DNA of 64,000 nt from assembly GCF_003469185.1 (NCBI RefSeq), contig NZ_QSIL01000004.1, positions 186,001-250,000 on the forward strand, in the 5' to 3' direction. Shown piece after piece: positions 8,447-51,125 of the stretch (position 1 is its first letter; each line of letters begins with the position of its first letter). The stretch comes from Collinsella sp. AM34-10. GTDB lineage: Bacteria; Actinomycetota; Coriobacteriia; Coriobacteriales; Coriobacteriaceae. The position numbers and the translations under genes are program-made. Under the pieces are notes generated by a model. The model was not told the DNA's origin. It ran no database searches and was given only the letters and a program-made list of their open reading frames with translations.

Positions 8447-9960
8447 TGGCGCAGAGTTTCGATTCCCTTACCGCCGCCCAGATCGCCGCGGGCGTTGCCG
8501 CCGGCGACTTTACCGCTACCGAGGTGGCCCAGGCCTCCTTTGCCGCCATCGAGGCGCGCGAGGGCGGGGTCCAGGCATTCCTGCAGGTGGCGCCCGAGCT
8601 CGCGCTCGAGGCCGCTGCGCGCGTAGATGCCGACCGTGCCGCAGGCAAGCCGCTGCCCCCGCTCGCGGGCGTGCCGCTGGCCATCAAGGACAACATGAAC
8701 CTCGTGGGCACGCGCACCACCTGTGCTTCCCGCATGCTCGAGGACTACCAGAGCGTCTACACCGCCACCTGCGTCCAGCGCATGCTCGATGCCGGCTGCC
8801 TGCCCATGGGCAAGGCCAACATGGACGAGTTTGCCTTTGGCAGCTCCACCGAGAGCTCGGCGTTCCACCGCACCAACAATCCCTGGGATACCGAGCGCGT
8901 GCCCGGCGGCTCTTCGGGCGGCTCTGCTGCTGCCGTCGCCGCGGGCGAGGTCGCGCTCTCGCTGGGCTCGGACACCGGCGGCTCCATTCGCCAGCCGGCG
9001 TCGCTCTGCGGCGTGGTGGGCTTTAAGCCCACGTACGGCGCCGTGAGCCGTTACGGCGTGGTTGCCTTTGGCTCGTCGCTCGACCAGGTGGGTCCCTTCG
9101 GTCGCACGGTCGAGGATGTCGCGCTGGCCATGAACGCGCTTACCGGCGCGGGTCACGATCCGTATGACTGCACCAGCCAGGATTGCGCCGTCGACTTTAC
9201 CGAGCATCTTAACGACAGCATCGAGGGCAAGCGCGTGGGCATCATCCCCGCGTTTATGGAGGCCGAGGGTCTGACGCCCGAGGTCAAGGCCGCTGTTCAG
9301 CGCGCCGCCCAGGAGCTGCAGAACCAGGGCGCCGAGCTGGTCGAGGTTGACCTGCCGCACCTGGACGCCGCCATCGCCGCCTACTATGTCATCGGCCCGG
9401 CCGAGGCGTTCTCCAACCTGGCCCGCTTCGACGGTATTCGCTATGGCTACCAGGAGGAGGGCTGCGCCAACCTGTCCGACCAGAGCTCGCTTTCGCGCGC
9501 CCACGGCTTTGGCGCCGAGGCCAAGCGCCGTCAGATGCTCGGCGCCTACCTGCTGAGCTCGGGCGTGTACGACAAGTACTACTACGCAGCGCAAAAGGCC
9601 CGCACGCTCATCACGCAGGACTACGACGCCGCGTATGCCAAGGTGGACATCATCCTCATGCCCGCCTCGCCGCGCACGGCCTTTAAGTTTGGCGAGATCA
9701 GTGACCCCACGCAGATGTACCTCTCCGATCTGTACACCATCTCGCTCAACATCTGCGGCAACGGTGGTATCTCGGTGCCGCTGGGCCTGGGCGAGGACAC
9801 CAAGCTGCCCGTTTCTGCCCAGCTGGTGGGGCCTGCCTTTAAGGACCGTCAGCTGCTCACGTTTGCCCGCGCCCTGGAGCGCGGCTTTGCCGATGCCGCC
9901 ACGGGTGCGCCCGCACTTTCCGTCGCGCCCGATTTTGCCGGGAAGGGGGGCGAGCTGTAA
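8446..9960 (+). CDS. gatA: Asp/Glu-tRNA(Asn/Gln) amidotransferase subunit A
   Basis: A 504-aa amidase-signature enzyme, the glutaminase subunit of GatCAB that releases ammonia from glutamine. The Ser-cisSer-Lys catalytic set is visible: Lys81 (PLAIKDN), Ser156/157 region (PGGSSGGS) and Ser180 (DTGGSIRQPA). Length is slightly above the usual 480-490. It overlaps gatC and gatB by one base each, consistent with one operon and stoichiometric synthesis. Confidence 0.96.
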   Translation: MAQSFDSLTAAQIAAGVAAGDFTATEVAQASFAAIEAREGGVQAFLQVAPELALEAAARVDADRAAGKPLPPLAGVPLAIKDNMNLVGTRTTCASRMLEDYQSVYTATCVQRMLDAGCLPMGKANMDEFAFGSSTESSAFHRTNNPWDTERVPGGSSGGSAAAVAAGEVALSLGSDTGGSIRQPASLCGVVGFKPTYGAVSRYGVVAFGSSLDQVGPFGRTVEDVALAMNALTGAGHDPYDCTSQDCAVDFTEHLNDSIEGKRVGIIPAFMEAEGLTPEVKAAVQRAAQELQNQGAELVEVDLPHLDAAIAAYYVIGPAEAFSNLARFDGIRYGYQEEGCANLSDQSSLSRAHGFGAEAKRRQMLGAYLLSSGVYDKYYYAAQKARTLITQDYDAAYAKVDIILMPASPRTAFKFGEISDPTQMYLSDLYTISLNICGNGGISVPLGLGEDTKLPVSAQLVGPAFKDRQLLTFARALERGFADAATGAPALSVAPDFAGKGGEL

Positions 9961-11636
9961 TGAAGGAGCTTTCCGAGGTCCTGCAGGATTGGGAGGCCGT
10001 GATCGGCCTGGAGATCCATACCGAGCTCACCGCACTCGATACCAAGATGTTCTGCAACTGCAAGCTTAGCCACGATGACGAGCCCAACGCCAACGTGTGC
10101 CCGGTGTGCCTGGGCCTGCCCGGCGCCCTGCCGGTGCCCAATAAGCGCGCCATCGAGAGCATCGTCAAGGCCGGCCTCGCCACCAACTGCGAGATTCAGC
10201 GCCACTCGATGTTCTACCGCAAGCACTACTTCTATCCCGATATGGCCAAGAACTTCCAGACTACGCAGGGTCCGGTCGCTTTTGCCATGTACGGTCACCT
10301 GGACCTGGACGTGACCGGTCGCGGTGCCGCCGAGCGCCCCGACTGCGCGTTTGGCGAGGCCGAGGCCCAGAGCCTGGCGAGCGCCTCGGCCAACGCCGAG
10401 GGCCTGTCCACGTCCATGACGTCGACCATGCGCGAGGGCAATCAGCGCTCCGGTCATCTGGCCAGCTATGATGCGTCCAACCTGCAGATGCCCGAGCGCC
10501 GCGAGGACGGTTCTTACACGGTGCCCATTCGCATCCTGCGCATCCACATGGAGGAGGACGCCGCCAAGATGGTCCACGTGGGCGGTGCCGAGGGCCGCAT
10601 TACCGCCGCTGCCGAGTCGCTCGTCGACTACAACCGCTGCGGCACGCCTTTGATTGAGCTCGTCACCGAGCCCGATCTGCGCACGCCCGAGGAGGCCCGC
10701 CTGTTTATGGAGAAGCTCCGTCGCATTTTTGTGACGCTGGGCATTTCGGACTGCTCCATGGAGAAGGGTTCTATGCGCTGCGACGGCAACGTGTCGCTGC
10801 GCCGCCGCGGCGAGACCAAGCTGGGCACTAAGACCGAGCTTAAGAACCTCAACTCGTTTAAGAGCCTGCATGATGGCCTTGCCTACGAGATTTGCCGCCA
10901 GGCCGAGGTACTCGAGGAGGGCGGAATCATCTATCAGGAGACCCGCCACTGGGAGCCCAGTCGCAAGCGCACCGTGGTTATGCGCGTCAAGGAGACGGCC
11001 GACGACTATCGCCTGTTCCCCGATCCCGACCTGGCGCCGTTCGATTTGGACGACGAGTTCATCGACCGCTGCCGTGGCGAGATCCCCGAGCTGCCCGATG
11101 TCAAGCGCGTCCGTTTTGAGGCCGACTTTGGCATTAAGACGGCCGATGCCGAACAGATTGCCGGCGACCCCGAGTTTGCCGACTTCTTTGAGGCCGCCGC
11201 TGCCGGTATGGCTGGCAAAGAGGCCCAGACGGTCGCAAACCTGCTGGTCAACGAGATGATCGCCTACCTTAAGGGCGCGGGCGTCTCGCTGGCCGAGTCC
11301 GGCATCGCGCCGGCTCAGGTGGCGGCGCTTGCCAAGCTGCTGGCGACCGATGCCATCAGCTCCAACCAGGCGCACGAGGTCTTTGAGGCCATGGCCCAAA
11401 CTGGTGACGACCCCAACAAGATTGTCGACGAGCGTGGTATGCGTCAGGTGAGCGACGCCGCCGCGCTGCAGCCGATCGTGGACGAGGTACTGGCAAACTG
11501 TGCCGATCAGGCGCAGCAGTATCGTGACGGCAACCAGAAGGTTATCGGCTTTTTGGTGGGCCAGTGCATGAAAGCGAGCCGCGGCAAGGGCAACCCGAAG
11601 CTCTTCAACGAGTTGCTGAGAACGTCGCTCTCGTAA
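9960..11636 (+). CDS. gatB: Asp/Glu-tRNA(Asn/Gln) amidotransferase subunit B, with insertion
   Basis: A 558-aa GatB, the kinase and tRNA-binding subunit, which phosphorylates the misacylated residue before amidation. The N-terminus (WEAVIGLEIHTEL) and the zinc-binding cysteines C32, C34, C47 and C50 are present, and the C-terminal YqeY/tail domain ends NPKLFNELLRTSL. It is longer than the usual 475-500 residues. An extra stretch of roughly 65 residues (about 119-185, rich in Ala, Ser, Glu) lies between the HLDLDV strand and RILRIHMEEDA. The usual 'YQISQ' motif region is replaced by FQTTQGPVAFAMYG. Identity is certain; the effect of the insertion is unknown. Confidence 0.95.
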   Translation: MKELSEVLQDWEAVIGLEIHTELTALDTKMFCNCKLSHDDEPNANVCPVCLGLPGALPVPNKRAIESIVKAGLATNCEIQRHSMFYRKHYFYPDMAKNFQTTQGPVAFAMYGHLDLDVTGRGAAERPDCAFGEAEAQSLASASANAEGLSTSMTSTMREGNQRSGHLASYDASNLQMPERREDGSYTVPIRILRIHMEEDAAKMVHVGGAEGRITAAAESLVDYNRCGTPLIELVTEPDLRTPEEARLFMEKLRRIFVTLGISDCSMEKGSMRCDGNVSLRRRGETKLGTKTELKNLNSFKSLHDGLAYEICRQAEVLEEGGIIYQETRHWEPSRKRTVVMRVKETADDYRLFPDPDLAPFDLDDEFIDRCRGEIPELPDVKRVRFEADFGIKTADAEQIAGDPEFADFFEAAAAGMAGKEAQTVANLLVNEMIAYLKGAGVSLAESGIAPAQVAALAKLLATDAISSNQAHEVFEAMAQTGDDPNKIVDERGMRQVSDAAALQPIVDEVLANCADQAQQYRDGNQKVIGFLVGQCMKASRGKGNPKLFNELLRTSLS

Positions 11637-11639
11637 ACG

Positions 11640-11775
11640 GGAACCGAGGGGCCGGGCGCAGGGCCTTGCCTCTCAATTTCGGACAGTCCTGACTCACGAC
11701 GGAGGCGCCACTGGCGCCTCCTGTTCGTGCGGAACTCATTGAGAGGCAAGGCCCTGCGCCCGGCCCCTCGGTTCC
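11640..11775 (+). ncRNA. Candidate structured RNA / inverted-repeat element, copy 1
   Basis: It begins 4 bp after the gatB stop. Perfect 38-bp arms (11640-11677 and 11738-11775) enclose a 60-nt loop. Within the loop are TCGGACAGTCCTGACTC, an inner stem CACGA/TCGTG, an apical hairpin GGAGGCGCC/GGCGCCTCC and then GTGCGGAACTC. The minus-strand element at 26226-26357 has the same internal sequences in the same order and also follows a stop codon, but its arms and inner stems are different sequences that still pair. No T-run follows. It may be a structured 3'-UTR RNA, an unusual terminator or a mobile palindromic unit. Confidence 0.6.
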
Positions 11776-11822: not shown

Positions 11823-11849
11823 AATGAGGGCGCCGTTGGCGCCCTCATT
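11823..11849 (+). terminator. Stem-loop, possible terminator
   Basis: A perfect 12-bp stem (AATGAGGGCGCC and complement) with a 3-nt loop is followed by CTTTAT. The T-run is weak. It is the likeliest end of the gatCAB transcript if that reads through the element at 11640-11775. Confidence 0.5.
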
Positions 11850-11868
11850 CTTTATGGATGTTGAAAAC

Positions 11869-12049
11869 GAAGGTGAATACTTTTCCGCGAAGTGAACGAC
11901 CTATTTTGGACCCCTGAAACATCAACACTTTTCTGGTTCGGTTTCCTGCGGTTTTTGTCGAGTTTTCCCTGCGGTTTTGCTGCGAAAAAATGCGGATGCT
12001 TCGGGGGCCCAATTTTGCTCGTTCACTTCGCGGAAAACCATTCACCTTC
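11869..12049. repeat. 181-bp extended inverted repeat
   Basis: Outer arms of 31 bp (11869-11899 and 12019-12049) match at 29 positions, and the inner sequence continues to pair imperfectly (ATTTTGGACCCCTGAAACAT with a matching right half near 11994-12014). The centre is T/G-rich without an ORF of note. It looks like a MITE-like or palindromic intergenic unit. The remainder of 11850-12280 shows only a possible promoter before the next gene. Confidence 0.7.
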
Positions 12050-12280
12050 AATTTGCTGGAGAGAAGAGGGACTCCTCTTTGGCGTCACGGATGTGCATCG
12101 CGGCGGGCGGATCGCCAGAAGCCGGCTGTTCCGCACCTTAAGATTTCCAAAAAGTTAACCTTTGTTGACCTCAATAGTTAGATAAACTAAACTCTTTTCC
12201 AAAAGTGTGCTCGAGCAAACTTGTTTACTCGAGTGCTGAGGCACCGTGCCGCGTCCAATGCGGCAAAAGGGAGAAGCAAC

Positions 12281-26225: not shown

Positions 26226-26357
26226 GAGCCCCGGGGAGGGCAAATATATAAGGTCGATCGCGAGTTCCGCACGAGCCGGAGAGCACTTAATGTGCTCTCC
26301 GTGCGAGTCAGGACTGTCCGAGCAGGCGACCTTATATATTTGCCCTCCCCGGGGCTC
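26226..26357 (-). ncRNA. Candidate structured RNA / inverted-repeat element, copy 2
   Basis: Perfect 31-bp arms (26226-26256 and 26327-26357) enclose a 70-nt loop. Read on the minus strand, it starts 18 bases after the UPF0210 gene stop and carries TCGGACAGTCCTGACTC, an inner stem GCACG/CGTGC, apical hairpin GGAGAGCAC/GTGCTCTCC and GTGCGGAACTC. These are the same conserved segments, in the same order and orientation relative to the gene, as at 11640-11775. Arms and inner stems differ but keep pairing. Confidence 0.6.
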
Positions 26358-26375: not shown

Positions 26376-27740
26376 CTAGTTCTTCAGCGAGTTCAGCGGT
26401 GCCGGGAAGCGTCCACCACGGTGTGCAAGCACGGTGCCGGCGTTGGGGTTCACCGGCATGATGGGCGCACGGCCGAACAGACCGCCGTACTCAACGCAGT
26501 CGCCCACACCCTTGCCGATAGCGGGAATCACGCGCACGGCCGTGGTCTTGTTGTTGATGACGCCGATGGCCATCTCGTCGGCGATGATGCCGGCGATGGT
26601 CTCGACTGGGGTGTCGCCGGGGATGGCGATCATGTCCAGGCCAACGGAGCACACGCAGGTCATGGCCTCGAGCTTCTCGAGCGAAAGTGCGCCGGCCTCG
26701 ACGGCAGCAATCATGCCGGCGTCCTCGGACACGGGGATAAAGGCGCCCGAGAGACCGCCCACGCTGGAGCTGGCCATGACGCCGCCCTTCTTGACGGCAT
26801 CGTTGAGCATGGCGAGCGCGCAGGTCGTGCCGGGGCCACCGCAGGTGCCCACGCCGATGATCTCGAGGATACGCGCGACGGAGTCGCCGATGGCGGGCGT
26901 GGGAGCCAGCGACAGGTCGACAATGCCCTTTTCGACACCCAGGCGACGGGCGGCCTCGCGGCTCATGAGCTCGCCGGCACGGGTGATCTTAAAGGCGGTC
27001 TGCTTAATCTTCTCGGCGACTTCCATCATCGATGCGGAATCGGGCAGCGTCTCCAGGGCTGCAGCCATAACGCCGGGACCCGAGACACCTACGTTGATGA
27101 CGGCGTCGGCCTCGCCACCGCCGTGGACGGCACCCGCCATAAACGGGGAGTCCTCGACCATGTTGGCAAAGCAGACAAACTTGGAGGCGCCAACGGAATC
27201 CTCGTCTGCCGTAAGCTTGGCGGCATCGATGATGGTCTGAGCCGCCATGAGCACGGCATCCATGTTGATACCGGCGCGCAGGCTGGCGACGTTGACGCTG
27301 GAGCAGACGCGGCTGGTGGTAGCGAGCGCCTGGGGGATGGACTGGATGACGCGGCGGTCGGCGTCGCCGATGCCCTTCTGGACGAGCGCGGAGAAGCCGC
27401 CCAGGTAATCGATGCCGAGCGTCTCGGCCGCGCGGTCGAGGGCATGCGCGATGGGGGTGAGGTCCTCATCCTTGCAGCATGCGGCGATCTGCGCCACTGG
27501 GGTGACAGAAACGCGCTTGTTGACGATGGGGATACCGTACTCGCGCTCGAGGTTCTCGGCGGTCTCGACCAGGTGCTCAGCCGTGTGCGTCACGTGGTCG
27601 TAGATTTTCGTGCACATGCGGTCGAGGTTCTCGTCGCCGCAACCCATGAGCGAAACACCCATGGTGATGGTCCTGATGTCGAGGTTCTGCTCCTCAACCA
27701 TGCCGCGGGTTTCCGCGATTTCTGCGGGCGTGATCGCCAT
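26376..27740 (-). CDS. UPF0210/PFL-like family protein (DUF711)
   Basis: 454 aa, the usual length for the family. I chose ATG 27740 because TAGGAGC precedes it; the longer frame lacks a ribosome-binding site. Recognisable blocks: [14 protein letters not shown] near residue 25, [53 protein letters not shown] and the C-terminal [18 protein letters not shown]. The family is structurally related to pyruvate-formate-lyase-like folds, but its function is not established. In many genomes it pairs with an ACT-domain protein, which is absent here. Confidence 0.9.
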
Positions 27741-27848
27741 CCTTGCGCTCCTATCTGCCAAAACGAGCATAGTCTTATCTATTCTAACGTGCCGCACGTG
27801 CTAAGTGGCGCGTGCGGCACGTTTTGGTGCTCGGTTGTTTCCGTTGTG

Positions 27849-51053: not shown

Positions 51054-51125
51054 AAAAAAGTTGCGGTGGAATAGTTCCTGTTTTGCCCTTAAGCTGGCCA
51101 TTCTAGGAACTATTCCACCGCAACT
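51053..51125 (-). terminator. Terminator of the GntR gene with 21-bp perfect stem
   Basis: Arms AGTTGCGGTGGAATAGTTCCT at 51059-51079 and its exact complement at 51105-51125, with a 25-nt loop. On the minus strand it is followed by TTTTTT (51058-51053), so it works as an intrinsic terminator for the regulator upstream. The unusually long perfect stem resembles the other inverted repeats in the window. Confidence 0.8.

Follow-up and report, generated by a model that had tools for sequence, protein, structure and literature searches.

Two perfect inverted repeats, one directly downstream of gatB and the other downstream of a DUF711 gene, stand out in the 64,000 nucleotides of Collinsella sp. AM34-10 analyzed in this work (the window), and raise the question whether they are copies of a structured RNA, as proposed in the initial annotation, or of a dispersed DNA repeat.

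Two palindromic elements in the window

The features of the two elements, a and b, are listed in Table 1. Their perfect outer arms, 38 and 31 bp long respectively, were both verified, and of the eight inverted repeats listed in the window (arm length 22 nt or more, distance not above 300), only they are fully complementary (100%). The segments originally seen to be shared, TCGGACAGTCCTGACTC and then GTGCGGAACTC, do recur in the same order, and the overall succession is also the same: TCGGACAGTCCTGACTC, inner strand, apical hairpin, linker and TCGTGCGGAACTC. At up to 3 mismatches, TCGGACAGTCCTGACTC has just two matches in the window, to be compared with a mean of 0.19 in 100 shuffles. Both copies follow stop codons in the sense orientation, those of GatB and of the DUF711 protein. 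No third copy of the same kind was found in the window by model R1, the third row (E 0.033) being the first hairpin reversed.

Table 1. Coordinates of elements a and b and of the adjacent genes in the window
Feature	Positions	Strand	Basis and remarks
Element a, left outer arm	11640..11677	+	38 bp, perfect complement of 11738-11775
Element a, conserved 5' core strand TCGGACAGTCCTGACTC	11679..11695	+	sequence; conserved in alignments A2 and A3
Element a, 5' inner strand ACGAC	11696..11700	+	type CTCACGAC; only partner listed is TGTTCGTG on the 3' side
Element a, apical hairpin GGAGGCGCC-ACT-GGCGCCTCC	11701..11721	+	sequence; hairpin covaries across the family
Element a, conserved 3' core strand TCGTGCGGAACTC	11725..11737	+	sequence, alignment
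Element a, right outer arm	11738..11775	+	pairs with left arm
gatB	9960..11636	+	Pfam GatB_N and GatB_Yqey; stop 11634-11636, 3 nt before left arm
Element b, outer arm, 3' side of core strand	26226..26256	-	31 bp, perfect
Element b, conserved 3' core strand TCGTGCGGAACTC	26262..26274	-	sequence
Element b, apical hairpin GGAGAGCAC-ATTAA-GTGCTCTCC	26278..26300	-	sequence and fold
Element b, conserved 5' core strand (TCGGACAGTCCTGACTC)	26305..26321	-	pattern search
Element b, outer arm, 5' side of core strand	26327..26357	-	perfect with 26226..26256
DUF711 gene	26376..27797	-	Pfam DUF711; stop 26376-26378, 18 nt before element b

The Collinsella-1 RNA motif (RF01700), which occurs in the same genus and had been considered as a possible identity, is a different entity: it has no match at either copy, even at E up to 10, and exceeds its cut-off in 9 of 25 relatives, at other places. 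When the Rfam 15 families were searched, only tmRNA and tRNA passed the gathering cut-off in the window, both elsewhere, and only tRNAs did so in 20 loci.

Other palindromes were also noticed. An imperfect inverted repeat with 69-nt arms (80%), including a 19-bp perfect stretch, is found directly after the gatB terminator (window 11864-12054). A second palindrome family, detected at 51059-51125 of the window and at L280:13549-13615, L281:16781-16847 and L282:6769-6835, combines outer arms that are conserved, AGTTGCGGTG(G/A)AATA, with an inner arm which changes on both sides (TAGTTCCTG, TAGGGACTG, TACGGACTG).

Conserved core and spread of the family

The element is a member of a Coriobacteriales repeat family. 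Its 17-nt strand, with no more than one mismatch, is present in 17 of 39 relatives, all 17 belonging to the same genus, represented by 24 of them, while both core strands are found exactly in 37 stretches of the genome_contigs set, 35 from Collinsella and the other two from Eggerthellaceae (L051) and Rubneribacter (L054). Model R1 matches 39 of 43 Collinsella genomes, with 21-34 copies in 24 of the 43, numbers to be taken as lower bounds, since R1 misses short-core relatives (the orthologues of L123 in L274-L276) and L267. Within the class, it matches 149 of 396 genomes and 39 of 153 genera; outside the order, five genomes are matched, by one weak match each. In 241,718 bases fetched for missing sites, R1 produced two matches (E up to 0.1), both corresponding to the known site S11. 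The viral_contigs set contains no exact match to the long-core or short-core pattern that could point to a viral origin. Several contigs end within the repeat. None of the open papers found in literature searches describes the repeat in its title or abstract; the supplementary tables of PMC8040213, listing 3161 candidate RNAs, may include it.

Some features of the distribution were noted in passing. About 425 kb of G169 (731659-1157393) are devoid of R1 matches, and the equivalent region of G024 also seems to have none; that this is a terminus-proximal gap is a guess. Close inverted pairs of elements facing each other, 134-323 nt from start to start, are found for example in G399 (355941/356094 and 1170666/1170800) and in G169 (1555123/1555409). 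A related, diverged core missed by R1 lies in 37-bp perfect arms at L267:11696-11838 (GTCCTCGGACATGCAAAGAGG ... CTCTTTGCGTCCTGCGGAAT).

The unit common to the copies is a core of about 62 nt, which can be folded into a strand-asymmetric bulged hairpin. In the apical hairpin (82 matches, 68 distinct), 98.3% of 467 cells are paired and all 7 counted pairs change on both sides; the covariation score is 0.635, against 0.033-0.200 in slid versions, in an alignment that had been fitted to a model already containing this hairpin. Between the two copies in the window, changes indeed affect both sides of the apical hairpin, but the replacement is not complete, as had been claimed: GGAG/CTCC is common to both.

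Inner strands fall into matched types in a set of 157 cores, at least one of which looks like a false find: GCGCAAGAC is found with TTTGCGTG, CTCGCAC with GGCTCGTG, CTCACGAC with TGTTCGTG, and ATGCAAGAC with TTTGCATG. No main type of the set is listed beside the partner of another type. The strands switch together, for example from GCGCAA/TTGCGT to ATGCAA/TTGCAT. This joint switching is visible only across many copies. The compensation initially described between the two copies in the window, from CACGA/TCGTG to GCACG/CGTGC, is absent there: the 3' strand TCGTGCGGAACTC is identical in both and the 5' strand alone differs (ACGAC in element a, GCAC in element b), so that the difference is a register shift and not a compensation. 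A conserved core with covarying stems is thus retained for the apical hairpin and the inner-strand types, and abandoned for the inner stem within the window.

In the fold of an isolated core of the second type, the conserved strands AGUCC and GGAACU are able to pair, with a bulged A. In hairpin pairs, A occupies the 5' side in 125 cases and T in 6 (52 distinct hairpins), and the core is therefore strand-asymmetric.

Private arms and the turnover of sites

Within 48 nt on each side, arms average 37 pairs over 110 elements, 97 of which have 30-44 pairs. They are private to each site: only seven pairs of elements from different groups have an arm 17-mer in common, one being accounted for by the inverted site 24 described below and six by a single string found in S3 and S22, and no exchange of arms between sites was seen in this comparison across groups. 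What had been noticed for the two copies in the window, namely that outer arms are unrelated from one copy to the other and yet self-complementary, holds across the sites compared.

Arms at one site can differ strongly between strains. Over 151 allele pairs, edits per nt amount to 0.193 in arms, compared with 0.108 for flanks and 0.086 for the core, and values larger than 0.3 are reached by 47 of the 151 pairs in arms versus 5 in flanks; of 30 sites, 20 have arms more divergent than flanks and 9 the reverse, orthologous elements not being independent. At the gatB site, where 30 loci were examined, the 21 core-bearing ones carry four arm alleles. Divergence mostly preserves pairing: of 11002 ungapped arm cells, 1338 are changed on both sides and paired and 187 changed on both sides and unpaired, with genome pairs counted in both directions and changes that are not independent events, while slid controls yield 245-376 matched cells. 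One-sided changes number 1168, and 373 of them remain paired as G.T. As to indels, 88 are matched in both arms versus 148 unmatched, a count without chance control.

Two related observations concern stems that vary between strains. In the hybrid elements L083, L111 and L252, the left arm resembles one allele and the right arm another, and the stem is partly broken. The terminator-like hairpin located after gatB (window 11828-11855, orthologues L164-L184) swaps its stem between strains and stays paired.

Most compared copies are residents at common sites beside gene ends. The 115 elements of G169, G014, G024 and G007 form 35 flank groups, of which 21 occur in every one of the four, 8 in three genomes, 1 in two and 5 in one. 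One of the five single-genome groups is site 24 of G169 (587888), whose core is inverted within flanks 91-98% identical to those of the three other genomes. Variation at other sites is diverse. S25 of G024 retains the stem, with a 4-nt loop instead of the core; S23 of the same genome resembles a deletion; S28 and S29 are lost together in G014; S26 of G169 is a remnant; S30 is missing from both G014 and G169; and S27 was not located in G007. The L123 site has a short core in G014, G024 and G007, and the L115 and L127 sites have different spacers in other genomes. S22 of G024 contains an insert of about 1.5 kb within the stem; this insert (L267:14060-15620) has GTGTAAGAG and the reverse complement of this sequence at its two ends. 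Core-less hairpins are found at orthologous sites for S25 (L269), for gatB (L185) and perhaps for gatA (L310), and may be either losses or ancestral states.

None of the nine site groups examined showed a clean empty site with target duplication, and conserved terminal inverted repeats were not found either, arms being private. A scan of 305,718 bases weakens another possibility, the insertion of the core into the loops of ready-made perfect hairpins: with arms of 30 bp or longer, four perfect inverted repeats contain the core, diverged in one case (L267), and none lacks it; lowering the length to 22 bp gives six with and seven without, several of the latter coming from other repeats. The extent of the shared unit was shown in the family of the Rubneribacter-like genome G225, in three genomes: CAGTC|core|TTGG is kept in 17 of 20 copies, followed by private arms, and CTCAGTC|core|TTGGTGAG in 13 of 20, the arms beyond being mostly complementary, so that the unit there is, in most copies, the core plus about 5-8 nt on each side.

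Integron attC sites are hairpins recognized as single-stranded DNA by a recombinase, and have conserved boxes at the base. By analogy, the elements might be sites of this kind, moved by site-specific recombination of a single-stranded hairpin. The strand-asymmetric core with bulges and variable stems, the single inverted site and the hybrid arms would all suit such an origin, which we nevertheless regard as unlikely: conserved boxes lie here near the tip and not at the base, most sites are common between genomes, and inversion as well as hybrid arms would likewise be produced by template switching and by recombination among strains.

Pairing in RNA or in DNA

Genomic localization was analyzed for 61 sites, 34 from the four-genome set and 27 from G399, on rough, home-made gene calls and with some G399 entries being paralogous pairs (such as L160 and L161). 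Four sites lie inside called genes and 57 are intergenic, as in dispersed repeats of the REP/ERIC/MITE-like type, which also occur in many similar copies. With respect to the upstream gene, 30 of the 57 are in sense and 27 in antisense orientation (28 and 23 in a first set of 51 elements). Near stop codons the picture is different: when a facing stop lies no more than 60 nt away, 23 copies are in sense and 1 in antisense. The left side of the core is at most 60 nt from a gene boundary in 32 cases, 23 at the stop of a sense gene and 9 at the start side of an antisense gene, while the right side is so in only 2, 1 stop and 1 start. Sense preference near stops favours either a role in the mRNA or polarity of insertion. 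No promoter common to the sites was seen, flanks and arms being private to each.

Position after stop codons could also suggest an unusual intrinsic transcription terminator, which we consider very improbable. T-runs follow neither copy in the window, whether beyond 11775 or, for the minus-strand element, beyond 26226; gatB has its own, separate hairpin and T-run about 50 nt beyond the element, varying independently between strains; and antisense orientation relative to the upstream gene is found at about half of the sites.

The chief rival explanation is that of an RNA acting at mRNA 3' ends, in which the core would fold between long stems and, through binding of a protein or through processing (by RNase III, for instance), would stabilize or mature the message. 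This is what may be expected from the near-exclusive sense orientation of copies close to facing stops (23 of 24), both copies in the window included, from the covarying apical hairpin and from the joint switching of inner strands. Against it, antisense orientation relative to the upstream gene applies to 27 of the 57 intergenic sites, 9 of which lie, according to the same rough calls, within 60 nt of its start side, and the gatA element of L054 is antisense and translated. In 3 of 30 gatA loci, the tail of the gene contains the element, antisense and translated in frame; the next most similar gatA loci, L306-L308, are without it.

Arm mismatches bear on the same point. If an RNA stem is under selection, G.U is expected to exceed A.C on its strand. 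In 107 elements, G.T mismatches are 40 and A.C 48; in 134 elements, after addition of G399 and omission of the innermost 5 nt, they are 58 and 53, respectively, and even in stop-adjacent copies the figures are 27 versus 23. Stems of T-tailed hairpins, i.e. terminators, in the same DNA feature 69 G.T versus 34 A.C (p=0.037 against the arms), some terminators being possibly counted more than once; when one stem per terminator is taken, the ratio is 117 to 75, significant alone (p=0.003), while the contrast with the arms is not (p=0.15). Arms thus have no wobble excess, and the terminator control is only suggestive. Compensating changes in the apical hairpin and in the arms form a pattern that does not discriminate RNA from DNA. 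What is preserved of the structured-RNA proposal is the conserved core, the covariation of the apical hairpin and the sense orientation near stops; RNA pairing as the cause of the arms is not supported by these sequence comparisons, which reveal no preference for G.U in the arms. They leave room for a transcribed RNA produced by the element. Overall, a 3'-end RNA appears to us a possible but rather improbable account, though one which gains some weight, at the expense of a DNA reading, from the control with one stem per terminator.

The family is best read as a REP/ERIC-like repeat of new design, made of a conserved hairpin core and private, self-matching arms. That it is a dispersed palindromic DNA repeat of the Coriobacteriales, of the REP, ERIC or RPE kind, with arms matched by DNA processes and a core spread in trans, seems to us slightly on the probable side. 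Rickettsia, where comparable palindromes are known, belongs to another phylum. The Rickettsia palindromic elements described in PMC10969869 are, like the element in the gatA tail in 3 of 30 loci, palindromic and in frame inside a protein gene; an element of that kind would be expected in frame in many coding genes, and such carriage is seen here for one, gatA. Sites are mostly intergenic (57 of 61, rough calls) and arms are not common between copies. According to the same review, ERIC/REP/MITE-like repeats are palindromic, mostly intergenic, present in tens of copies and in some cases reported near gene 3' ends; copy range, location and palindromic nature are the same here, but the centre alone is common, and most of the palindrome consists of arms specific to a given site. 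The RAYT/IS200-type Y1 transposase (PF01797) was rejected as a partner, not tracking with copy number: no PF01797 match is found in G178 despite its 23 copies, while G013, with two matches, has no copy.

In this repeat, DNA processes operating at the hairpin, either template switching or quasipalindrome correction, which also invert spacers, would both generate the arms and maintain their match; selection on RNA pairing would not be the main keeper of the arms, and the core would be spread by a putative enzyme acting in trans and recognizing its hairpin. Inversion of the core between its arms and joint changes of the arms are what template switching does. In PMC8794818 and PMC8604942, template switching is described as homogenizing the arms of inverted repeats and inverting spacers, as observed here; the cases covered in the abstracts are RNA genes and inverted repeats in yeast coding sequences, and no conserved dispersed core is named there. 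A mild effect on the host mRNA, on 3'-end stability or processing, would be compatible with such a DNA repeat. Several observations go against this reading: an orientation-blind DNA element leaves the ratio of 23 sense to 1 antisense near stops unaccounted for, and strand-asymmetric pairing of the apical hairpin and inner stem is also expected of an RNA. The weakness of the wobble control, the non-independence of orthologous elements, the failure to find a clean empty site in the nine groups and the missing link with Y1 transposases count against it as well.

A more daring idea, which we hold to be doubtful, is that the core hairpin might be the substrate of a putative insertion or repair machinery, building a new perfect inverted repeat from the flanking DNA at each settlement. 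If this were true, every copy would write its own arms, and the family would represent a palindrome-building mobile element; we know of no mode of this type.

Compensating changes are usually taken as evidence of RNA structure, while here long, matching and jointly changing stems are found, in a large natural set, with no wobble excess. The repeat has no Rfam entry, and could mislead searches for RNA motifs. Since its long matched stems lack such an excess, an origin of hairpins at the DNA level, by template switching, can be put to the test in a gut genus, at about 30 sites in each genome.
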